Below, piece after piece: positions 2 through 56,915 of a stretch of 64,000 bases of DNA. The DNA is from Lachnospiraceae bacterium (lineage in GTDB: Bacteria; Bacillota; Clostridia; Lachnospirales; Lachnospiraceae), in contig JAEEOO010000051.1 in assembly GCA_016284315.1 (NCBI GenBank), positions 1 to 64,000 of the forward strand, in the 5' to 3' direction. The position numbers were made by a program, and so were the translations under genes. The number at the start of each line of letters is the position of its first letter. Position 1 is the first letter of the stretch. Below the pieces are notes generated by a model, which was given only the letters and a program-made list of their open reading frames with translations, did not search any database and was not told the origin of the DNA.

Positions 2-1360
2 ATGATAGAGAACACTATAGACTGGAGCTTCATATATGACCTTGTAGAGGATAAATACTGCCATGACAACGGAAGACCCAGCATGGATCCAATCATGCTC
101 ATCAAGATACCATTTATCCAGTATCTCTACGGGATAAAAAGTATGAGACAGACCATAAAAGAGATCCAGGTCAATGTAGCATACCGGTGGTTCCTGGGCC
201 TTGATATGTTAGATCCGGTTCCCCACTTCTCAACATTTGGAAAGAACTACACCCGTAGATTTAAGGATACGGATCTTTTTGAACAGATATTCAGCCACAT
301 ACTTGAAGAATGTTACAAAGACAACCTTGTAGATCCATCTGAAGTCTTTGTTGATGCCACACACGTTAAGGCAAGGGCCAATAACCACAAACTCCGGATA
401 CAGAAGGCACATGAGGAGGCTCTTTTCTACGAAGAAACCCTAAAGAAAGAGATCACTGAGGATCGGGAAAAGCATGGCAAGAAGCTGCTGAAAGATAATA
501 ACGACGATGATGATTCTAAACCGTCAACCAACGATTGCCACAAAGAAAGAGAAATAAAGATAAGCACATCTGATCCCGAAAGCGGATGGTTTCATAAAGG
601 CGAGCATAAACAGGTTTTTGCATATGCTGTCGAAACTGCCTGTGATAAGAATGGGTGGATACTGGGATATACCGTCAGTCCCGGTAACCTTCATGACAGC
701 AGGACTTTTAAAGGTTTATACGACAAGATAAAAGATATAGGAATTAAAACTCTTATAGCAGATGCGGGATATAAAACCCCGGCCATCGCGAAACTGCTTA
801 TCGATGATGGGATCTCACCCCTGTTTCCATACAAAAGACCAATGACAAAAGAAGGATTCTTTAGGAAACGGGATTATGTGTATGATGAGTATTATGATTG
901 CTACATCTGTCCGGCAAACCATACTCTCCGGTATGTGACAACAAACAGAGATGGATATAAAGAATATAAGAGCTGTGGTGCTATCTGTAAAAATTGCCCC
1001 AACCTTTGCAGGTGTACTTTTAGCCGAGACCACGTAAAGCTTGTTACCAGGCATATATGGGAAGAATACCTTGAACGGTGCGAGGATATCAGACATACAC
1101 TTGGAATGAAAGAATTATACTCCAAGCGGAAAGAAACCATTGAACGGATCTTTGGGACGGCCAAAGAAAACCATGGACTACGATACACACAGATGTATGG
1201 AAAAGCTCGGATGAGTATGAAGGTCGGGCTTACCTTTGCGTGTATGAATCTTAAAAAACTGGCCAGGATAAGGTTCAGGAATGGGGGAAATAAGCCTTAT
1301 TTTTACAATATATATCTGTTTTTTATCAAATACTTTGTTTTAGAAAGAAAACCGGCCTAG
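2..1360 (+). CDS. IS1182 family transposase (5'-truncated by window edge)
   Basis: DDE transposase that would move the surrounding element. The visible 452 residues align along their length with the 485-residue copy at 61990-63447, and the first visible residue corresponds to about residue 30 of that copy, so roughly 29 residues lie outside the window; the ATG at 2 is internal. Family landmarks are GRPSMDPIMLIK, SMRQTIKEIQVNVAYRWFLG and HFSTFGKNYTRRF. Likely catalytic acids are the Asp in VFVDATHVKA, the Asp in LIADAGYKTP and the Glu in KRKETIERIFGTAKE. A Cys-rich patch (CGAICKNCPNLCRC) precedes the last acid. The frame is intact to its TAG stop. It differs from copy 2 at many positions, mostly in the charged linker and both ends, so the two copies are not a recent duplication. 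Confidence 0.93.
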   Translation: MIENTIDWSFIYDLVEDKYCHDNGRPSMDPIMLIKIPFIQYLYGIKSMRQTIKEIQVNVAYRWFLGLDMLDPVPHFSTFGKNYTRRFKDTDLFEQIFSHILEECYKDNLVDPSEVFVDATHVKARANNHKLRIQKAHEEALFYEETLKKEITEDREKHGKKLLKDNNDDDDSKPSTNDCHKEREIKISTSDPESGWFHKGEHKQVFAYAVETACDKNGWILGYTVSPGNLHDSRTFKGLYDKIKDIGIKTLIADAGYKTPAIAKLLIDDGISPLFPYKRPMTKEGFFRKRDYVYDEYYDCYICPANHTLRYVTTNRDGYKEYKSCGAICKNCPNLCRCTFSRDHVKLVTRHIWEEYLERCEDIRHTLGMKELYSKRKETIERIFGTAKENHGLRYTQMYGKARMSMKVGLTFACMNLKKLARIRFRNGGNKPYFYNIYLFFIKYFVLERKPA

Positions 1361-2977: not shown

Positions 2978-4717
2978 TTAATCAACTACACCGAAACCAA
3001 GAAGCGTGAATCTCTTATCCGCGTCTTTTTCGGGAATCCTAATTTCTACTTCTCTCTCCTGTGAAGGGCCGCCTCTGAACACGATAAGGTTGTTGCAGTG
3101 CTGCCATCCAACGATATGGGGATCGATGAAAAGTTTCTTCTCACCGTCCACATAAACTTCCGCGCATCCGTCCTGAGGAGATGCGGAATCCATGTAAGCT
3201 ACTGTGAGGGCGCTGCACTTAACTTTTGCCTTAAATACGCGCTTTTCTCTTCCCTCGGCATCTTCTTCCTCTCCGTTGTAGAACCAGTTGTTCCTAAACT
3301 CGGGAGTACCCTGAAGATCCATATTTCTCTCAACATGCTGTAAAAACTTGCTGTCTCCGGTAAATGATCCGGTATCGTAGCTTATAAATGCATCACAGGT
3401 ATCGATGCTCTTTCTGTCTACATAATAAATGTTCTCAAACTCGCCGCCCTTGGGAGGTTTGATGCCCGTAATATCGGTATCAGCCTCTGCAGGTGATGTA
3501 TCTGCGATCTTGAACATATTGATAAGTCCGTCAGCCATGATCCTGTGACCGATGTTGGTAGGATGGTACATATCATAGAAATACTGATTCTTTGATACGA
3601 TGCCGCCCTCTTCCTCGGTGAAGTAGAACTGATCGTAAACGGACTTCTTTGTGCTTACCATGGGAAGATTGTAGGCTTCTCCGACGCACTTTAATCTCTC
3701 TTCAAGGTTGTATCCGTCAACGAATACTGCAAAAAGAAGGATAACTGCAGGCTTCTGAGGACTGTTGTAAATCTTTCTTACAAGGGAATCATAGAACTCA
3801 CCCTTTGTCTCATCACCTTCGTCATTAACAGCAAATTCAACGATCATAACGTCGGGCTGAACAGTTCCGTCAGACTCAACATCATGCTTGTATCTTAAGA
3901 TACCAACCTCTGAAGGAGTTCCTCCAACGCCGGCTTTAACGTACTTAACGTTATCTTCGTAGCCCCTTCCCGCTATATCGCAGAATCCCTTAAAAGCATT
4001 GTAAGCATAGCAGTTTACGTTGATAGGAATTGCTCCGGCGCCCTGAGTAATGGAACCGCCGATGAAACCAACGGTTACTTTCTCGCCTCTTCTCGCCTTT
4101 TCGATAGCAGTCTTAAGGCGGCCGGTGTTGCCCTTCTGAAGAAGTGACTTCTCGATCATCTTCTGATATACGGGGCTGTTAAAATCAATGTCTCTGTCGG
4201 CTGTCTGCTCGGGAGCATCAAAGCCGTCATTCATGTAGAAGCAAACAGAAACCTTGGCCTGCATTCCCGCTTCGGGGAACTCAAATCTGATCTGTCCGGG
4301 AACATTGTCATCGTCGGACCACTCAAAACGGTCAAGCTGCATGACCATTTCCATTCCATCGGATAAAAGGTCCATGTTAAGGGTTGTTCCCGAAACATAG
4401 GGATCGGTCTTTCCATACATCTGGAATGCAAATCTCACATTAACGGGCTCTCCGGCTTTCTGAACGGAAACACCGATTGAATGAACCTGTTTTCTTAAAC
4501 CTTCAACTGTATCAAGCTGGGCGATCATCTCTTCATCAGCGAGATTACCCACAAGTTTAGCGCTGGCCTTAAGTCTGCCGTCACTCTCATATATAAACTG
4601 AATTCCTCTGCCGTCGGGCATGGGCGAACCGCATACCTCTTTATTCTTCATGATGAAGTATCCCGGTCTTTTGGCAGTGGGATCTTTGGGCGCTACAGGC
4701 CCTCTTCTTTCTTCCAT
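2978..4717 (-). CDS. SGNH/GDSL hydrolase, probable acetyl-xylooligosaccharide esterase
   Basis: Predicted cytoplasmic carbohydrate esterase of 579 residues. A beta-rich N-terminal domain (about 1-180) precedes an SGNH hydrolase core. Block I is GFIGGSITQG with nucleophile Ser222, a VEFAVND segment carries Asn298 of block III, and block V is YDMYHPTNIGHR with Asp382 and His385 as the remaining catalytic pair. A further beta domain occupies about 420-579. No signal peptide. Its place between GH8 and GH43, with the start codon just after the GH8 stop (ribosome site AGGAG overlapping that stop), argues for removing acetyl groups from imported xylo-oligosaccharides. The domain order resembles CE2-like or related SGNH esterases; the exact CE family is uncertain. 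Confidence 0.82.
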   Translation of the reverse strand: MEERRGPVAPKDPTAKRPGYFIMKNKEVCGSPMPDGRGIQFIYESDGRLKASAKLVGNLADEEMIAQLDTVEGLRKQVHSIGVSVQKAGEPVNVRFAFQMYGKTDPYVSGTTLNMDLLSDGMEMVMQLDRFEWSDDDNVPGQIRFEFPEAGMQAKVSVCFYMNDGFDAPEQTADRDIDFNSPVYQKMIEKSLLQKGNTGRLKTAIEKARRGEKVTVGFIGGSITQGAGAIPINVNCYAYNAFKGFCDIAGRGYEDNVKYVKAGVGGTPSEVGILRYKHDVESDGTVQPDVMIVEFAVNDEGDETKGEFYDSLVRKIYNSPQKPAVILLFAVFVDGYNLEERLKCVGEAYNLPMVSTKKSVYDQFYFTEEEGGIVSKNQYFYDMYHPTNIGHRIMADGLINMFKIADTSPAEADTDITGIKPPKGGEFENIYYVDRKSIDTCDAFISYDTGSFTGDSKFLQHVERNMDLQGTPEFRNNWFYNGEEEDAEGREKRVFKAKVKCSALTVAYMDSASPQDGCAEVYVDGEKKLFIDPHIVGWQHCNNLIVFRGGPSQEREVEIRIPEKDADKRFTLLGFGVVD

Positions 4718-4728
4718 TTATTTAACTC

Positions 4729-5856
4729 CTAGTAAATCCTGTAATTTCCGCTGAGTGCAAGGAATGCGAACATGTAAAGGCAATTGTCGTAATATCTTCT
4801 CTCACCTGTTCTTAAAGGCATCTCAAAGAACTTCTTTACCCATTCCTTTGCCACGTCATCAAGCTCGGTTGCAAGTACCGACTGTGCAACGGTTGCTGTG
4901 ATGGCGAAAGGATGAAGTGCTTTTTCTCCTGCAATACGGCCGTCCACTTCGTAGATGTGATATGAATCATTTCTCATATCCTCAAGAAGCGCACGCTGAA
5001 TATTGTAAGCCGCCTTTGTCTGACCTGCATCTTTTCCAAACCATGCATAGTCAAGGCCGATGTTTGCGGCTGTTCTGTAAGAATCGCTGAAGAACCAATC
5101 ATGTCTGTCCTGTGTCCAGGGGATCGGTCTTGTCATGGGTGAACCGTCAAATTCCGCATACTCTGCGGAAAATCCGGTCTTTTCATGGCATGCCTTGGCA
5201 AGATATTCTCTTGAAACCTTTGCGGCCTCTTTAAAGAACTCCTTGTCCTCTGCATTGCCCCACTCTGCCCAAAGCTCATAGAAATGAGGTAAGTGATAAG
5301 AAGGATCGGTATAATCAATGCCCGGAACAAAAAGGATCTGATGATTCTCTCTGTTAAACATGGGAACGCCCACGCGGCCGTTCTCTCCCTTATGCACCAT
5401 GGCAGAAAGGATCTCTTTTGCCTGTTCGGAGTAATTGAGCACGCCTTCTCCGTCGCCCCATCTGTGGCTTGCGAAGAGAAGTGCCATTACAAAAAATTCT
5501 TCTCCGTCGGGTGCTGCTCCGTTTGCATTGGGTTTTCCCGAAGTCTGACATGACCAGGCAAAATACCCCTCACTAAAGCCTTCCGTCATGTACATGTACT
5601 TCTTAGCCCATTTCCAGATACGATCGAACTCGTCTTTCATGTCAAGCTGAACGCAGAGCATCATGCCATAGCTCATTCCCTCGGTACGGGCATCAAAATT
5701 GCCGGTATCCTCAAGATATGCCATTCCGTCTTCGGTCTCATGATAGAAAGAATCTTTTCCGTGGAAAAATTCTTCCTTCAACTGCGCGAGCCTGTCTGAG
5801 ACTTCCTTTTCAGGAATCCCAACTTCTGCAAATACATTTCTGTAGTTCGGATTCAT
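4729..5856 (-). CDS. GH8 reducing-end xylose-releasing exo-oligoxylanase
   Basis: GH8 enzyme of 375 residues, the length of the Rex group (EC 3.2.1.156), which removes single xylose units from the reducing end of xylo-oligosaccharides. The (alpha/alpha)6 barrel is recognisable by FDARTEGMSYGMML with acid Glu59, NANGAAPDGEEFF with Asp117, and HDWFFSDSYR where Asp258 is the likely base. There is no signal peptide, in keeping with a cytoplasmic oligosaccharide enzyme rather than a secreted GH8 endoglucanase. First gene of the three-gene xylo-oligosaccharide operon; a strong site GGGGGAGG sits 6 nt before the ATG. The upstream leader (5857-6100) is rich in stable hairpins, so control by RNA structure is possible. 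Confidence 0.9.
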   Translation of the reverse strand: MNPNYRNVFAEVGIPEKEVSDRLAQLKEEFFHGKDSFYHETEDGMAYLEDTGNFDARTEGMSYGMMLCVQLDMKDEFDRIWKWAKKYMYMTEGFSEGYFAWSCQTSGKPNANGAAPDGEEFFVMALLFASHRWGDGEGVLNYSEQAKEILSAMVHKGENGRVGVPMFNRENHQILFVPGIDYTDPSYHLPHFYELWAEWGNAEDKEFFKEAAKVSREYLAKACHEKTGFSAEYAEFDGSPMTRPIPWTQDRHDWFFSDSYRTAANIGLDYAWFGKDAGQTKAAYNIQRALLEDMRNDSYHIYEVDGRIAGEKALHPFAITATVAQSVLATELDDVAKEWVKKFFEMPLRTGERRYYDNCLYMFAFLALSGNYRIY

Positions 5857-5930
5857 TGAAACCTCCCCCTTGTTCTATTTTTTCAATACAATCCCTTTAG
5901 TATCATGAGAGAATAGTGCCCCACAAAATA

Positions 5931-6077
5931 GCGTATCTTTTATAGATACGCTCGCGCGAGCACGGTGTCGCAAAGCGACAATCTTCCTTTCCGTGCGAGT
6001 CGCATCCTCGCGGAGCGTCTTATTTTATGCTCTGCATAAAATAAGAATCCTGAGCATGATAACTCATACTCAGAATT
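5931..6077 (-). promoter_or_regulatory. Hairpin-rich leader region before the GH8 operon
   Basis: Four strong dyads lie in this stretch: 8-bp stem 5931-5938/5944-5951; 6-bp stem TGTCGC/GCGACA 5966-5980 nested in GCACGG/CCGTGC (5960-5965, 5991-5996); 12-bp perfect stem 6019-6030/6034-6045 with a 3-nt loop; and a 14-bp stem 6046-6059/6064-6077 that contains two G-U pairs only if transcribed from the minus strand. The stem nearest GH8 is followed on the minus strand by TATTTTG, so it could be a terminator or attenuator. They lie between the exporter operon and GH8; which transcript they belong to is not known. Confidence 0.5.
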
Positions 6078-6225
6078 TTACACAGTGCTCGTAAGACTTA
6101 CTCACTAACTTTTGTTAAGGGGTAGTCATATATTGCGTTTTTGTTACAAAATTTTCCGTAACCCACATCATATAGTGCTCAGAACCCTTTGCAAACTGCT
6201 TTTCTTTCCTTTTTCGCAGGCAACA

Positions 6226-6595
6226 TACCTCATTAATTCTTATTATCATTTTTGTGAGGTATCTGCCGTCAGATGCGTACCTCATTTTCACTACGAGAAT
6301 TCAATATTGAGGCAAGCTTTCTTACCGCGGTACATCATTTGTTTAATCTCTCATTCAAAATGAGGTATGGACTTTTATGATGATACCTCATTTTTTCTTT
6401 CCTCAGTCCACAATGAGGTTTGCATCCTTTCACACATACATGCGAATATTTCAAAAGTTTAAAAAATGAGGTAGTGCGCCAAAACCGCCTACCTCATTTT
6501 TACTACAAGAATTCAATATTGAGGTAGAACGCTGCCGGCGCCTACCTCATTTTCACTACAAAAACCTAATATTGAGGTAGTATCCTACAATTTAG
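6226..6595. repeat. Seven-unit array, 53-bp period, inverted TACCTCA/TGAGGTA blocks
   Basis: Units start at 6226, 6278, 6331, 6384, 6437, 6490 and 6543. From the second unit the spacing is exactly 53 bp. Each unit opens with TACCTCATTT (degenerate in units 3 and 5), then 20 nt, then TGAGGTA at position 31 (variants TGAGGCA, TGAGGTT), then about 15 nt of unique sequence. TGAGG occurs at 6255, 6308, 6361, 6414, 6467, 6520 and 6573. Units 2, 6 and 7 also share the middle part (ACTACRA...TAATAT type), the others do not. The array fills the gap downstream of the ABC exporter operon and ends 3 bp before its stop codon. No gene was found in it. Confidence 0.9.
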
Positions 6596-6598
6596 GTT

Positions 6599-8434
6599 TT
6601 ATCTGTAGTACTTTGCCTGGGCCTCAAACATCTCGGCATAGATGCCTCCGGAAATGGCCTCAAGTTCCTCATGACTTCCGTATTCCGCGATCTTTCCGCC
6701 GCTGAAAACAGCGATCTTATCGCAGAACTGACAGCTTGATAATCTGTGGGAAATGTAAAAGGCGCTCTTTCCTCCAATAAGGGTATTGAACTGTCTGTAA
6801 ATATCATACTCCGCAATAGGGTCAAGGGCCGCCGTGGGTTCGTCAAGGATAACCACCGGTGAGTTCTTGTAAAGAGCTCTTGCGATAGCGATCTTCTGCT
6901 GCTCACCGCCTGAAGGCTCGATTCCTTCCTCATCAAAGTACTTAAAGAGATTGGTTTCCTTGCCCTTATCAAGCCTTTCCATCAAGGTCTCAAGGCCTAC
7001 AAGCTTAATAAGCTCTTCAATCCTCTCCTGCTCCTCTTTCGTGGTGGCCCTGTCAAAGGAAATATTGTCGGACAAAGTAAGGGCAAAAAGCTTGAAATCC
7101 TGGAATACGGGAGCGAACTGCTCCATGTACTGCTTGTAATCATATTCCTTGATATTTACGCCATCAACAAGGATCTCACCTTCCGTAGGGTCATAAAGCC
7201 TGCAAAGAAGCTTAATGAATGTGGTCTTGCCAGCGCCGTTAAGGCCTACGATGGACAAATGCTCGCCGGGCGCGATCTTGATGCTGATATCATCAAGGAT
7301 CTTCTTATCGGTTCCGGGATAAGCAAAGGTAACATGCCTGAACTCGATCTCATGATCCTTTTTCTCGATGGGTCTGTCGCCCTTTTCAAGGGCCGCAGGG
7401 TAATTCATGAAAAGAACATATTCATAAGCATAATTACACTTCTGAGCAAGATCTATCACGTTATAAACAATACCGTTTAATGTACTGTCAAGCCCTGCTT
7501 CGGCGGTGATAAGCTGAGTAAATGTGGCAACACCGAAATGTCCGGTGATAGCAAGAAAAGCAACATAGAAATATGCGGCAACGCCTTTGATAACACTGAG
7601 AATTCTCTCGATCATACCGTATCTTAACTGAGTATCTCCCTGCCATTTCCAGGTCTTATTGCTGGCATCCGTGTTTTTCTGCCATGCATTTATCATCATG
7701 TTATCAGCGCCGTAAAGTCTGATGTCCTTTCCGAATCTGACATCCACGATTTCCCACCCGAAGTACCCGAAAAGCCTGTTGACCTTTGAAAGCTTTTGGA
7801 AGGAAGCAAAGGATATCTTGTTATTCTTTATCATGACAAAGATATTAACAAATACGTAAAGCCCTATTATCGCAAGGAGAAGAGGGGCATGCATTGCAAG
7901 CACAGTTACAAAACCTGCTATCTTAAACACATTTCCGATGAAGGAAAATACTGCATTGGAAACACCGAAAACACCTTGGGAATACCAGCTCATACCTGTC
8001 CTTGCCTTCTCTATCTGGTCAAGGGCTGCCTTATCTTCCGTAAGCTGAAAATCAAGCTCCATGGAATGTTTTCCAATAAGGATATTGAAATAATTATCAA
8101 GCCTTTCCTGGTGCTTATTGATCACCGTTCCGCATCTGTCCACAAGAAGCTGAAGAACCGCTTCGCAAAGGATCAGGATTGCTGCGTACATGATCAGTTT
8201 TTTCACCTCTCTGTCCCCTACGATTTCTTCGACGATAAGGGGAGAAATAAATACTGCGATAAAGGGCTGAGCGATCTGAAGAGCGGTCCTAATTGCCTGG
8301 GCTACAAAAAACACAGGGTACTTTTTTGCAGCAGTTCCGAATAAAACCTTGATAACAACAAATATCTTTTCTACCTGCGCCAAAAAGCCTTTTTTCTCAT
8401 TTAAATTTTCATGTTCTTTACCTGTTTTACGCAT
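6599..8434 (-). CDS. ABC exporter subunit B (permease-ATPase fusion)
   Basis: Half-transporter of 611 residues: an N-terminal membrane domain with about six helices (for example VFFVAQAIRTALQIAQPFIA and LLLAIIGLYVFVNIFVM) and a C-terminal ATPase with Walker A GLNGAGKTT, signature PSGGEQQK, Walker B PVVILDEPTAALD and the H-loop His in FYISHRLSS. Both nucleotide-site motifs look intact. I set the start at the ATG at 8434, which follows AGGGGGAG and overlaps the upstream subunit by 8 nt; a longer in-frame extension lacks a ribosome site. It pairs with the next upstream subunit, and the XRE gene precedes both. Substrate unknown; peptide or drug export are the usual roles of such pairs. Confidence 0.88.
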   Translation of the reverse strand: MRKTGKEHENLNEKKGFLAQVEKIFVVIKVLFGTAAKKYPVFFVAQAIRTALQIAQPFIAVFISPLIVEEIVGDREVKKLIMYAAILILCEAVLQLLVDRCGTVINKHQERLDNYFNILIGKHSMELDFQLTEDKAALDQIEKARTGMSWYSQGVFGVSNAVFSFIGNVFKIAGFVTVLAMHAPLLLAIIGLYVFVNIFVMIKNNKISFASFQKLSKVNRLFGYFGWEIVDVRFGKDIRLYGADNMMINAWQKNTDASNKTWKWQGDTQLRYGMIERILSVIKGVAAYFYVAFLAITGHFGVATFTQLITAEAGLDSTLNGIVYNVIDLAQKCNYAYEYVLFMNYPAALEKGDRPIEKKDHEIEFRHVTFAYPGTDKKILDDISIKIAPGEHLSIVGLNGAGKTTFIKLLCRLYDPTEGEILVDGVNIKEYDYKQYMEQFAPVFQDFKLFALTLSDNISFDRATTKEEQERIEELIKLVGLETLMERLDKGKETNLFKYFDEEGIEPSGGEQQKIAIARALYKNSPVVILDEPTAALDPIAEYDIYRQFNTLIGGKSAFYISHRLSSCQFCDKIAVFSGGKIAEYGSHEELEAISGGIYAEMFEAQAKYYR

Positions 8435-10325
8435 AGATCTTCTCCCCCTTTCCCTCCATATTTTCACTATCCGTGTTTTCCCCCTCAGGATTCTCGCGGT
8501 AGTACTGTGCCTGGACATTAAACATCTCGGCGTACTCGCCGTTCTTTGCCATAAGTTCATCATGGGAGCCGTATTCAACCATCTCACCTTCCTTGAACAT
8601 GGCTATTCGATCACAGAACCTGGTGGATGCGAGCCTGTGTGAAATATAAACCGCAGACTTGTCTCCCACCATATCGTCAAATCTTTCGTAAAGCTGCTGC
8701 TCTGCGATGGCATCAAGAGCAGATGTGGGCTCATCAAGTACAATGATCTTCGCTCCTTTGTATAGAGCTCTTGCAAGAGCAAGCTTCTGCTTTTCACCGC
8801 CGGACATATCAATACCATCTTCCTCAACTATATTTGTAAGAGGAGTCTCCACACCCTTTGTAAGGGAATCAAGTTTTTCGGAAAGTCCTGCCTGTCTTGC
8901 GCATTCTTCTGCCTTTTTAAGGTCAAGATCCTCCCTGCTTTCCATCGCTATATTCTCGCTCATTAAAAAGGCGAAAATATCAATGTCCTGGAACACCGGA
9001 GAAAAGAGCTTGTAGTAATCCGTTCTCTTATATTTTCTAATATCAACACCGTTTAAAGTAATAACGCCTTCCGTTGGATCGTAAAGCCTTAAAAGAAGCT
9101 TAATCATGGTGGTCTTTCCGGCTCCGTTAAGGCCTACAACCGCCAGTTTTTCTCCTTTCTTAAGCTTAAGGTTTAAATGCTTTAGCGCATAACCATCGGC
9201 TTTACGGTATTTATAGCTGACATCCTTAAACTCGATCTCATAGTCCTTCGCCTCGGGAAGTGAAATGCAGTCCTTCTCATCATCTCCAAGGTCCAGTTCG
9301 ATAAAGGATCTGAAGTCGTCGGTCTCAAGAGATGCTCTCTTAAAATCACCGAATCTCTGAAGCAGATTCTGGAGAGCGCTTGCAAAAGCAAGAGCCAGTG
9401 ACAAGAACATGGTAAAGTTACCGACGCTTAAATCGTTCTTGAACACTGCAAGATAAAGCACGGTATAAACACATCCCTGAATGATGATATAAAGAGCTCT
9501 TGCCACCACGCTGTTGGCAAACCAGATCTCATGATGGTAATCCATCCTGTTAATTCTGGTGGCGTAGATCTTTTCCTGCTTGTCGGCGAGAAATTCGCTT
9601 AACGAAAAGAGCCTGATGTCCTTGGCGTAGTCAAAGTCCTGGGTAACTCTCTCCATGTAATGAGTCTTTCTCCAGGTATTTGAAAGCTTGTCCCAAACCT
9701 CTTTTTTATCCTTTTTGACAACCCATCTGAAGAACAGGAACTGAAGAACACAAAGTACGATAAGGGCTATGATAAGTCTCCAGTCAAGGATCATTACCGC
9801 CACAAATGTAACAATGGCTGTCACCAGCTGCTGAAGGATGTTTTCAATGTTGTGCATCATTCCCTCAACGCCGTTATTATTTCCACCTGTAGCCTGAGAT
9901 GCTCTCTCAGCAACATCAAGTACCTCCGGTCTTTCAAGGAATTCATAGGGTATCCTTAAAACCTTTGATACACGTTCGGTGATCATGAACATCCTGACAT
10001 AGATGTACTTGTACCAGCTTTTTCCGCTTGAAATTGCCAAACCGATGGTTACAATAAGAGCAATGGATCCTGCCACCGCAATTAGCTTAACCAAGGCCTT
10101 TATACTTTCTTCTTTGGGAAGTCCCGCTTGAACGATATCGATAACAAACTTACCGAATATTCCCCAGAAATAAGATATTACGGAGCTACAGATGACTCCG
10201 ATGATCATCAGCACAATAACCGATGGACAGTATTGTGCCATTTTACCTATGATATATTTCGTGTTACTCCATATACCAAATTCTTTGTGCAAGGGATTAT
10301 CCTTGCTTTCTTTAAAGTCTGACAT
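8427..10325 (-). CDS. ABC exporter subunit A (permease-ATPase fusion)
   Basis: Half-transporter of 632 residues with a six-helix membrane domain (YCPSVIVLMIIGVICSSVIS begins the first segment) followed by an ATPase carrying Walker A GLNGAGKTT, signature DMSGGEKQK, Walker B KIIVLDEPTSALD and H-loop VYISHRLAS. The start at 10325 follows GGAGGGAG; a 7-bp hairpin (10345-10351/10356-10362) sits just ahead of that ribosome site. The stop overlaps the start of subunit B, so translation is probably coupled and the two form a heterodimer. The XRE regulator ends 72 bp upstream on the same strand. Substrate not predictable from sequence. Confidence 0.88.
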   Translation of the reverse strand: MSDFKESKDNPLHKEFGIWSNTKYIIGKMAQYCPSVIVLMIIGVICSSVISYFWGIFGKFVIDIVQAGLPKEESIKALVKLIAVAGSIALIVTIGLAISSGKSWYKYIYVRMFMITERVSKVLRIPYEFLERPEVLDVAERASQATGGNNNGVEGMMHNIENILQQLVTAIVTFVAVMILDWRLIIALIVLCVLQFLFFRWVVKKDKKEVWDKLSNTWRKTHYMERVTQDFDYAKDIRLFSLSEFLADKQEKIYATRINRMDYHHEIWFANSVVARALYIIIQGCVYTVLYLAVFKNDLSVGNFTMFLSLALAFASALQNLLQRFGDFKRASLETDDFRSFIELDLGDDEKDCISLPEAKDYEIEFKDVSYKYRKADGYALKHLNLKLKKGEKLAVVGLNGAGKTTMIKLLLRLYDPTEGVITLNGVDIRKYKRTDYYKLFSPVFQDIDIFAFLMSENIAMESREDLDLKKAEECARQAGLSEKLDSLTKGVETPLTNIVEEDGIDMSGGEKQKLALARALYKGAKIIVLDEPTSALDAIAEQQLYERFDDMVGDKSAVYISHRLASTRFCDRIAMFKEGEMVEYGSHDELMAKNGEYAEMFNVQAQYYRENPEGENTDSENMEGKGEKIYA

Positions 10326-55996: not shown

Positions 55997-56097
55997 TGAC
56001 CCCCGGGGACGGGGTTAGGGTGACATTTTTGACACCTAGGGACGGGGTTAGGGTGACATTTTTGCCCCACGGGAACGGGGGTGTGGTGTCAAATTTT
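55997..56097. repeat. REP-like repeat cluster (three units)
   Basis: Direct units at 55997-56030 and 56030-56063 share GGGGACGGGGTTAGG or AGGGACGGGGTTAGG followed by GTGACATTTTT; a diverged third unit lies at 56062-56097. It lies between the divergent feoA and coiled-coil genes, just upstream of the latter. Confidence 0.85.
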
Positions 56098-56170: not shown

Positions 56171-56767
56171 ATGAAGATCAAAGAAGTAAGATCATATTAT
56201 CGTTCTAATACAAAACAGTTATCGGATCAGATACAAAGTCTCAAGCAGCAAAAGGAAAAAGCGGAAAAGCAGTACAAGATAACGGGAGATGGTACGTTTT
56301 CGGATGAAGCCGCAACTCTTCAGCTTTCTATTGATGCTGTAAAGAAAGCTTATGATGAGAACATGAAGACATCTCAGGCTGTAGAAGAGCAGTTCTGTAA
56401 TATCGCTAACATGGAAAGTTCAAGGCAACAGGGTGAAGCCATGGAGGAGTACGCCGAGGACCTTGGAAAGATCATGACAGTATTTAGAAGGATGGCTCAC
56501 GGCGATATAGTTCCTGCAACAGACGAAAAGAAACTTTCGGAATACAGCGATAAAATGTATACCGCGGCCAAGAACATGCAGGCTATGGCTCAGCAGTTGG
56601 AGGAGAAGGAGCGTAAGAAACATAAATCCCTTTGGGAGGGTGAAGAAGAAAAAACTGAGTACGAGGATCCGACTGAGATAGCGGACAACACGGAATATGT
56701 TGGAGAACTACAGGATATAGAAATACCTGAATTGTCACCCGGGGACGGGGTTAGGGTGACATTTTAA
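56171..56767 (+). CDS. Hypothetical coiled-coil protein with REP-derived C-terminus
   Basis: Soluble, highly charged protein of 198 residues that I do not recognise. It is predicted helical with long coiled-coil stretches (SDQIQSLKQQKEKAEKQYKI, later AAKNMQAMAQQLEEKERKKH). The ATG at 56171 follows AAGGAGG with 8-nt spacing. The last 11 residues (LSPGDGVRVTF) and the stop are encoded by a REP-like repeat (56733-56765) identical in type to non-coding copies nearby, so the original stop was probably lost or displaced by repeat insertion. It is one of the few plus-strand genes and ends against a bidirectional terminator. Confidence 0.7.
   Translation: MKIKEVRSYYRSNTKQLSDQIQSLKQQKEKAEKQYKITGDGTFSDEAATLQLSIDAVKKAYDENMKTSQAVEEQFCNIANMESSRQQGEAMEEYAEDLGKIMTVFRRMAHGDIVPATDEKKLSEYSDKMYTAAKNMQAMAQQLEEKERKKHKSLWEGEEEKTEYEDPTEIADNTEYVGELQDIEIPELSPGDGVRVTF
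56733..56765 (+). repeat. REP-like unit inside a coding 3' end
   Basis: 33-bp unit with GGGGACGGGGTTAGGGTGAC, in the plus orientation, forming the final codons of the coiled-coil gene. It is the reverse complement of 56877-56909 with one mismatch. Confidence 0.85.
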
Positions 56768-56842: not shown

Positions 56843-56915
56843 AAAAATGTCCCCTCACCCCCGTCCCCAGGGGTCAAAAATGTCACCCTAACCCCGTCCC
56901 CGGGTGTCAAAATTT
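56843..56915. repeat. REP-like repeat pair, inverted, overlapping a stop codon
   Basis: Two units in the minus orientation (56843-56875 and 56876-56915). The second contains the TGA stop (56907-56909) of the minus-strand gene that follows. Confidence 0.85.

Follow-up and report, generated by a model that had tools for sequence, protein, structure and literature searches.

BIME and REP elements are found near the ends of genes. According to the available part of one report, the REPs of a BIME are regularly spaced and alternate in orientation, BIMEs bind gyrase, and complementary changes have been reported in REPs (PMC2817692). The arrays described here share with E. coli BIME-2 and the Xanthomonas clusters, as far as that part of the report covers them, an extragenic position, regular spacing, and alternating inverted orientation, all of which characterize REPs and BIMEs, as well as occurrence at several to many loci per genome with a species-specific sequence (PMC2817692). 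Other hallmarks of REPs and BIMEs, namely a RAYT gene between inverted repeat copies, a RAYT gene wherever the repeat is present, and compensatory changes, were not found for the arrays. Whereas a palindrome of 20-40 bp is the conserved part of a BIME or REP, the arrays conserve only half-sites of 7-9 bp, lack compensatory pairing, and have one geometry common to different motifs; none of the RAYT genes that were read was flanked by an array motif. In the available part of a second source, the sopC site of the F plasmid (parS_F) is built of twelve 43-bp repeats, in each of which a ParB dimer binds a 16-bp inverted repeat, and the likeness, which is one of architecture only, lies in tandem units with one dyad-symmetric site each (PMC9178275). 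However, sopC is a single plasmid locus with its own ParABS system, whereas the arrays occupy many chromosomal loci, and their half-site cores are about 29-32 bp apart with diverged interiors. The gyrase motif has a central 36-bp part and flanks with a 10.75-bp GC rhythm, and its central part is similar in length to the array modules, and its helically periodic flanks resemble the A/T rhythm of one array class (GGCTA), which the linkers of other classes have weakly or not at all; gyrase is drawn downstream of transcribed units, and BIME-2 is enriched in cleavage sites (PMC6379681, available part). This motif is degenerate and has neither strict half-sites nor arraying at a fixed step, unlike the arrays. 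CRISPR loci share a regular array, conserved blocks, and variable spacers (in part from PMC3733652), but the array blocks are 7-9 bp, alternate in orientation, and have variable sequence in both intervals. We found no description of such arrays in the open-access literature searched.

The window, by which we mean the whole 64-kb stretch of DNA that was analyzed, contained a seven-unit array between genes at positions 6226-6579 (Table 1). Its modules have the form TACMTCA(TTT)-N-(AAA)TGAKGTA. As the preliminary description had stated, TGAGG recurs at a constant 53-bp step, with starts at 6255, 6308, 6361, 6414, 6467, 6520, and 6573. The same description had placed TACCTC-type blocks 30 bp before each TGAGG, which was correct for modules 2-7 but not for module 1. 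This module is one base short, so that its block lies 29 bp before TGAGG and the first left-to-left step is 52 bp; modules 2-7 are all of one length, as are the six linkers. The TACCTCA-type blocks stand at the module starts, reading TACATCA in module 3 and a degenerate TACATGC in module 5. The unit centers differ except in units 2, 6, and 7, in agreement with what had been noted before. The array lies just 3' of the ORF at 6599-8587, the stop of which is the gene end nearest to it. At the start of the window (2-1360) there is also a putative transposase-like ORF.

Table 1. Coordinates of the array, its parts and its neighbors in the window, and arrays at contig ends.
Feature	Position	Strand	Remarks
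Module 1	6226-6261		TACCTCA ... TGAGGTA, 36 bp; 6-mer core starts 28 bp apart
Module 2	6278-6314		TACCTCA ... TGAGGCA, 37 bp
Module 3	6331-6367		TACATCA ... TGAGGTA, 37 bp
Module 4	6384-6420		TACCTCA ... TGAGGTT, 37 bp
Module 5	6437-6473		Left half-site degenerate (TACATGC), right TGAGGTA, 37 bp
Module 6	6490-6526		TACCTCA ... TGAGGTA, 37 bp
Module 7	6543-6579		TACCTCA ... TGAGGTA, 37 bp
Six 16-bp linkers, diverged	6262-6542		6262-6277, 6315-6330, 6368-6383, 6421-6436, 6474-6489, 6527-6542
Neighboring ORF, 375 aa	4729-5856	-	Start codon 369 bp from the window array; presumably glycosidase-like
Neighboring ORF	6599-8587	-	Stop 19 bp from the array; true start probably internal; presumably ABC-exporter-like from its motifs
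Arrays at or near contig ends	G000 C45, C38, C26, C12; G005 C5; G029 C6; G027 C119, C142, C198		

A motif-free scanner, which looked for six alternating inverted 6-mer blocks, allowing one mismatch per block and any spacing of 14-49 bp provided that it was constant, flagged one place in the 64-kb window and none in 30 dinucleotide shuffles. Tandem Repeats Finder (score 30) did not list the window array, and this silence is consistent with the diverged spacers. The genome from which the window comes (G000; a draft of 2,254,502 bp in 79 contigs, 81% complete) contained ten arrays on nine contigs (C12, C26, C32, C35, C38, C41, C45, C49, and C61, with two on C49), which were identified by pattern searches and block listing and were all recovered by the scanner. 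A three-block period-specific pattern (at most two mismatches) matched 41 times on the forward and 38 times on the reverse strand of G000 and 0/0 times with the reversed control, and in 58 other genomes it gave 0-2 matches per strand, as did their controls. From the 41 and 38 matches against none in the control, together with the absence of flags in the shuffles, we concluded that the window array is not due to chance. One further scanner flag in G000 (L026 near 5369) was rejected by eye as low-complexity or simple repeat.

Spacing in G000 was strict with few exceptions. The distance from left to right core was 28 bp (19 pairs) or 29 bp (42 pairs) in all 61 pairs within 26-32 bp, and the distance from right to left was 24 bp in 53 of the 56 pairs within 21-27 bp; the real exceptions were 25 bp in the C35 array and, beyond this range, 35 bp in the C32 array. 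Between arrays, linker identity was 0.28 (0.25 expected from composition) and that of module interiors 0.38 (0.31 expected), the excess falling largely on columns next to the half-sites. Adjacent units were more alike (identity 0.48-0.61), and for 37-bp modules the values were 0.53 for adjacent modules, 0.44 within the same array, and 0.38 between arrays. The greater likeness of adjacent units suggested that the arrays grow by duplication and then drift.

The same design was found in the same genus, one of rumen bacteria, with three further half-sites, GCATGC (class II), GGCTA[AT][AT]A (class III), and AAGCATC (class IV), in addition to that of G000 (class I). Class II was first seen in a related species, G014, with a 29/24 geometry and a step of 53 bp. 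When its pattern (at most two mismatches) was searched in 31 genomes, G014 gave 45/45 and G006 17/16 matches, G005 gave one exact match at a contig end, the other genomes gave 0 or 1 per strand, and all controls were 0. Among 133 core pairs within 20-33 bp in G006 and G014, 62 were 29 bp and 60 were 24 bp apart; one irregular right-left step of 36 occurred in G014. Three class II arrays lie at matching places with the same flanking genes in G006 and G014, and where these orthologous arrays were compared some units were related, unit numbers differed, and units had been duplicated within arrays. At the glycosidase locus, which has an array in both G006 and G014, there was none in G000 or G005 within the stretch compared.

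Classes III and IV were both found in the strain Lachnospiraceae bacterium P6A3 (G012). Class III matches, with control counts in parentheses, numbered 59 (4) in G012, 29 (5) in G007, 7 (2) in G016, 5 (4) in G029, 4 (2) in G005, 2 (2) in G027, 1 (2) in G013, 1 (5) in G019, and 1 (2) in G006, with 0 in the rest; the matches in G016, G005, G013, G019, and G006 were outside the loci read as arrays. The 22 class III loci that were read (12 in G012, six in G007, three in G029, and one in G027) gave 117 adjacent left-right pairs, consisting of 110 modules of 37 bp, six of 38 bp, and one chance overlap. Their right-left distances were 45 (78 cases), 46 (12), and 44 (8), and the step was 72-75 bp, mostly 73 and once 75. 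The class IV pattern matched 18/20 times in G012, 28/30 in G027, 14/15 in G007, 4/4 in G016, and 4/3 in G021, with controls of 0 and single three-mismatch matches in six other genomes. At 21 class IV loci the modules were 39 bp, the left-right distance was 32 in 71 of 78 pairs within 20-45 bp, the right-left distance was 30 in 55 of 65 pairs within 16-45 bp, and the step was 62 bp. At least one class was present in 10 of the 31 genomes (G000, G005, G006, G007, G012, G014, G016, G021, G027, and G029), with the membership of G005 resting on one three-site match; the remaining genomes may have motifs outside those sampled. We conclude from these results that the chromosomal arrays form a genuine class, with geometry as its defining feature. 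The blocks, which the preliminary description expected to be conserved in relatives, kept their geometry there but not their letters, and spacing was kept while spacers changed.

Several other features were seen in these genomes. Many contig ends lie inside an array or no more than about 1 kb from one (Table 1), as if the arrays were longer than assembled. In G012, G007, and G029, a CCTCAGAA(A/G)C element recurs, in either orientation, in the module centers and linkers of class III (L352, L357, L361, and L366). Three related AAGCATC-like units at G011:C1:14761-14997 are spaced at 84 bp, equal to 8 turns at 10.5 bp, and are possibly a further step length of the array design.

Searches of wider scope gave few matches. 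The exact four-block pattern of class I was found in no stretch of an 84,980-species collection, which may omit G000 or a very near genome, and in no stretch of viral contigs. The class II pattern occurred in two of 397 genomes of the family, with one one-mismatch match each. It also occurred in five viral stretches with one match each, none of which was flagged by the motif-free scanner, and a viral origin was rejected. Among 80 tsf loci surveyed (1.26 Mb in total, for the most part from Lachnospiraceae and in some cases from the same genus, P6A3 included), the motif-free scan flagged 13, which by eye looked like coding repeats or low complexity; nine flags in relatives (L089, L103, L110, L171, L300, L304, L314, L320 near 8890, and L333) were likewise judged by eye to be coding or simple repeats. 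No arrays were found in the sampled parts of G015 (395 kb), G028 (300 kb), G013 (196 kb), and G008 (46 kb), or in one stretch each, about 20 kb long, from G003, G009, and G022.

To describe location, L319 was counted once and orthologous arrays separately. Both neighbors were visible for 61 arrays or single modules, 47 of which lie between co-directional ORFs, nine between convergent, and five between divergent ORFs; a further five are at the edge of a contig or stretch. Of the divergent cases, three depend on ORFs of 119 aa or less, but L364 and L399 look truly divergent, and thus the arrays are mostly, but not always, 3' of a gene. We take the neighbors, from their sequence, to be ordinary genes, such as tsf, an EF-Tu-like gene, glycosidases, and transporters. 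The exporter genes to which the window array had been related therefore have no special role, since other arrays adjoin tsf and further ordinary genes. Ten neighboring proteins were submitted to Pfam. ORF6N proteins (PF10543) adjoin arrays in G014 and G005, but there was no match in G000 or G006, and this candidate was rejected. In L098 of G014 (3010-3031) and L160 of G006 (8228-8249), the first half-site of an array (GCATGT) falls within the final codons of the gene upstream. Two terminator-like hairpins of G000 with ACCTCA/TGAGGT stems adjoin arrays (L024 7518-7555 and L032 2507-2533); one of them is just 3' of tsf, where G006 and G014 have another stem.

When the half-sites of the four classes were aligned by eye on a hand-picked C, the distance from this C to its partner G was 33 bp in every class, except for 32 bp in the 28-bp variant found in G000. 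At 10.5 bp per turn, steps of 52-53, 62, and about 73 bp amount to 5.0, 5.9, and 7.0 turns, a whole-turn pattern that rests on three step lengths only. All four classes had an A/T peak at the dyad, with values of 0.85/0.95/0.85 in class III (75 non-redundant modules), 0.87/0.97/0.84 in class II (31 modules), 0.72/0.97/0.86 in class IV (29 units), and, in G000, 0.77/0.82/0.74 in 39 modules of 37 bp and 0.94/0.94/0.88 in 17 modules of 36 bp. Outside the half-sites, the A/T content of class III had a best period of 10.5 bp with its maximum at the dyad, and 0 of 3000 permutations were as strong; the best period was 10.5 bp in G012 alone, 10.3 bp in G007, G029, and G027 alone, and 10.4 bp in linkers alone. 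For class IV the whole unit gave a best period of 10.1 bp (0 of 3000) and the linker alone p = 0.062. For class II the whole unit (best period 9.8 bp) and the module had an A/T rhythm, with p = 0.58 for the linker. The 53-bp units of G000 gave p = 0.003 in the 10-11 bp band with a best period of 9.4 bp and a linker peak out of phase with the dyad, and the 52-bp units (n = 14) had nothing in this band (p = 0.29). Modules alone had best periods of 8.6-9.4 bp, reflecting A/T at the dyad and again 9-10 bp or so to each side of it. The dyad A/T peak is thus general, and the 10.5-bp rhythm through the linker is clear in the 73-bp class only.

No base-by-base covariation was seen between paired half-sites. 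In G000 the variable C/A and G/T positions were independent, with 41 complementary pairs in modules (36.0 expected, p = 0.096) and 32 across linkers (31.7 expected), and so was position 2 of class IV, which is often variable (59 against 57.6 expected, p = 0.37; linker 37 against 42.7). One of 40 tests of flank positions in classes I and II gave a pair excess (GCATGC module +2, 39 against 31.5, p = 0.004). In class III, arms of the GGCTAATAA and GGCTATAAA types (AAT and ATA subtypes) never occurred in one module: 56 and 38 modules were pure, none was mixed, and 16 were others (n = 110). The two subtypes occupy separate zones of the arrays. By eye, the AAT zone precedes the ATA zone along the contig in nine of ten two-zone G012 arrays, whatever the gene direction (L349-L357 and L320), an order that could reflect the direction of replication. 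The unmixed arms fit two homodimers and the inheritance of whole modules, and could fit an RNA stem. They count for a homodimer because a homodimer would require matching arms.

We examined genes of RAYT (Y1) transposases in the same genomes. Y1_Tnp matches were present in 9 of the 31 genomes, and there was none in the array-bearing genomes G007, G029, G016, and G021, where absence is not final as these are drafts. The RAYT flanks that were read (G000, G005, G006, G014, G012, and G028, leaving out G025, G027, and the short IS200-like genes of G000 and G013) contained other repeats of a GGGGAC type. In G006, a single inverted pair of GCATGC sites stood some 300 bp upstream of the RAYT gene, its members 21 bp apart and off the array spacing. 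Related RAYT-like proteins of 259 aa, with a C-terminal end that looks helix-turn-helix-like by eye, are encoded in G000:C39 (L282 1468-2247) and in L278, L279, and L280, and the GGGGAC-type repeats that flank their genes are unlike the arrays. In the window, copies of a GGGGACGGGGTTAGGGTGACA repeat lie in both orientations around and at the end of a 228-aa ORF (55997-56080, 56741-56767, and 56843-56912), and repeats of this type also flank RAYT genes of G000 and relatives.

Taken together, we favor, with a probability of roughly 0.6, the reading of the array as a phased set of putative dimer-binding, DNA-bending sites. A dimer of a sequence-specific DNA-binding protein would occupy each dyad-symmetric module of 36-39 bp, and its subunits would each read one half-site of 7-9 bp in the major groove. 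The DNA between the half-sites would be bent, its minor grooves being A/T-rich at the dyad and again roughly one turn to either side. The linkers would bring the repeat length to about 5, 6, or 7 helical turns and so place successive dimers on one face, where the lined-up dimers would form one long phased nucleoprotein array, mostly intergenic and 3' of a gene. The four motif classes may be served by homologous proteins whose half-site specificity drifts, and genomes with two classes would have two such proteins. The preliminary description had already suggested a helically phased, multi-site protein-binding array, and the comparison of sequences supports this putative reading in that spacing is kept while the spacers and, between species, the half-sites change. 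It gains further support from the steps of 53, 62, and 73 bp, which are near whole turns, and from the 10.5-bp A/T rhythm of the 73-bp class. We infer that selection acts on both the arms and the spacing. As to function, we speculate that the likeliest role of the arrays is in chromosome organization, as an anchor, a domain boundary, or a topological barrier.

Two other explanations involve known protein families. Arrays of a BIME-2-like type could serve as landing sites for gyrase, with the periodic A/T wrapping DNA on the enzyme 3' of transcribed genes to absorb positive supercoils and the half-sites serving another factor or cruciforms. The published motif geometry, the location of gyrase downstream of transcription, and the enrichment of cleavage sites in BIME-2, as given in the available part of that study (PMC6379681), are in accord with it, as are the 10.5-bp rhythm of the 73-bp class and the position of most arrays 3' of a gene. 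However, gyrase is conserved and its motif degenerate, which leaves strict half-sites that switch between congeners and exact module lengths unexplained, and linkers outside the 73-bp class have a weak rhythm or none; we consider this explanation unlikely. A mobile repeat of the REP/BIME/REPIN type spread by a RAYT transposase would account for alternating inverted blocks between genes with a species-specific motif, for related units in the orthologous G006 and G014 arrays, and for a long Y1 protein in each of the four genomes that carry arrays of class I or II. Against this stand the four array-bearing drafts with no Y1_Tnp match, the different repeats in the RAYT flanks and the off-spacing pair of G006, and partner bases that do not covary, unlike those of REPs as far as the available part of the report describes them (PMC2817692), and such a spread is very unlikely.

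The differences in unit number between orthologous arrays and the duplication of units within arrays could also come from micro-cassettes kept by a site-specific recombinase, for which arms and spacing would serve recombination and not a host function. Half-sites 28-32 bp apart would not fit the core site of a tyrosine recombinase, growth is explained by the duplication of neighbors, and no recurring recombinase gene was noticed beside the arrays, although the last point is weak, with ten neighboring proteins in the family search; cassettes of this kind are quite improbable. Complementary arms, the position of most arrays 3' of a gene, and the unmixed class III arms would suit an array of RNA hairpins in the 3' region of transcripts, acting as a terminator, a stabilizer, or a source of sRNA. 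RNA folds of 13 array pieces were more stable than those of shuffles (z from -1.9 to -5.5), but such folds are expected anyway because the arrays are inverted repeats. The lack of base-by-base covariation between paired half-sites argues against an RNA stem: one-sided single-base changes without a match in the partner half-site were seen in classes I, III, and IV, and the flank positions of classes I and II gave the one pair excess noted above. The loops would be 17-25 nt, no terminator-like site was called within the window array, Rfam gave only a sub-threshold RAGATH-7 match (E = 0.33) at 4500-9000 of the window, and L352, L098, L361, L319, and L099 had no Rfam match at the gathering score. 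These results weakened the hairpin alternative that had been proposed along with protein binding, and we regard it as highly improbable. Ordinary tandem duplication with neutral drift agrees with the greater likeness of neighboring G000 units, but the spacers have diverged almost to saturation without loss of the blocks or the spacing, and the same geometry recurs with different half-sites. For blocks and lengths, drift is thus contradicted, in line with the earlier remark that the array is unlike a decaying tandem duplication, and this explanation is scarcely credible.

Returning to the phased dimer-binding sites, a wider form of this reading is possible though doubtful: the arrays of this genus might be chromosome-wide and satellite-like, bound by a fast-evolving dimeric family of DNA-bending proteins with one half-site per lineage and forming phased fibers at about ten or more loci, with the geometry (a 33-bp core and steps of 5, 6, or 7 turns) selected while the letters turn over. 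If true, this would be a bacterial counterpart of centromere satellites and the proteins that bind them. The arrays would form a class of repeats set by distance and helical phase, not by letters, which repeat finders that compare letters would easily miss. P6A3 is probably cultured, because its record is not marked as a MAG, and since this named strain has two classes, the putative binding protein could be sought there directly. The four classes in one genus would be a natural experiment on the co-change of a DNA-binding protein and dozens of its sites.
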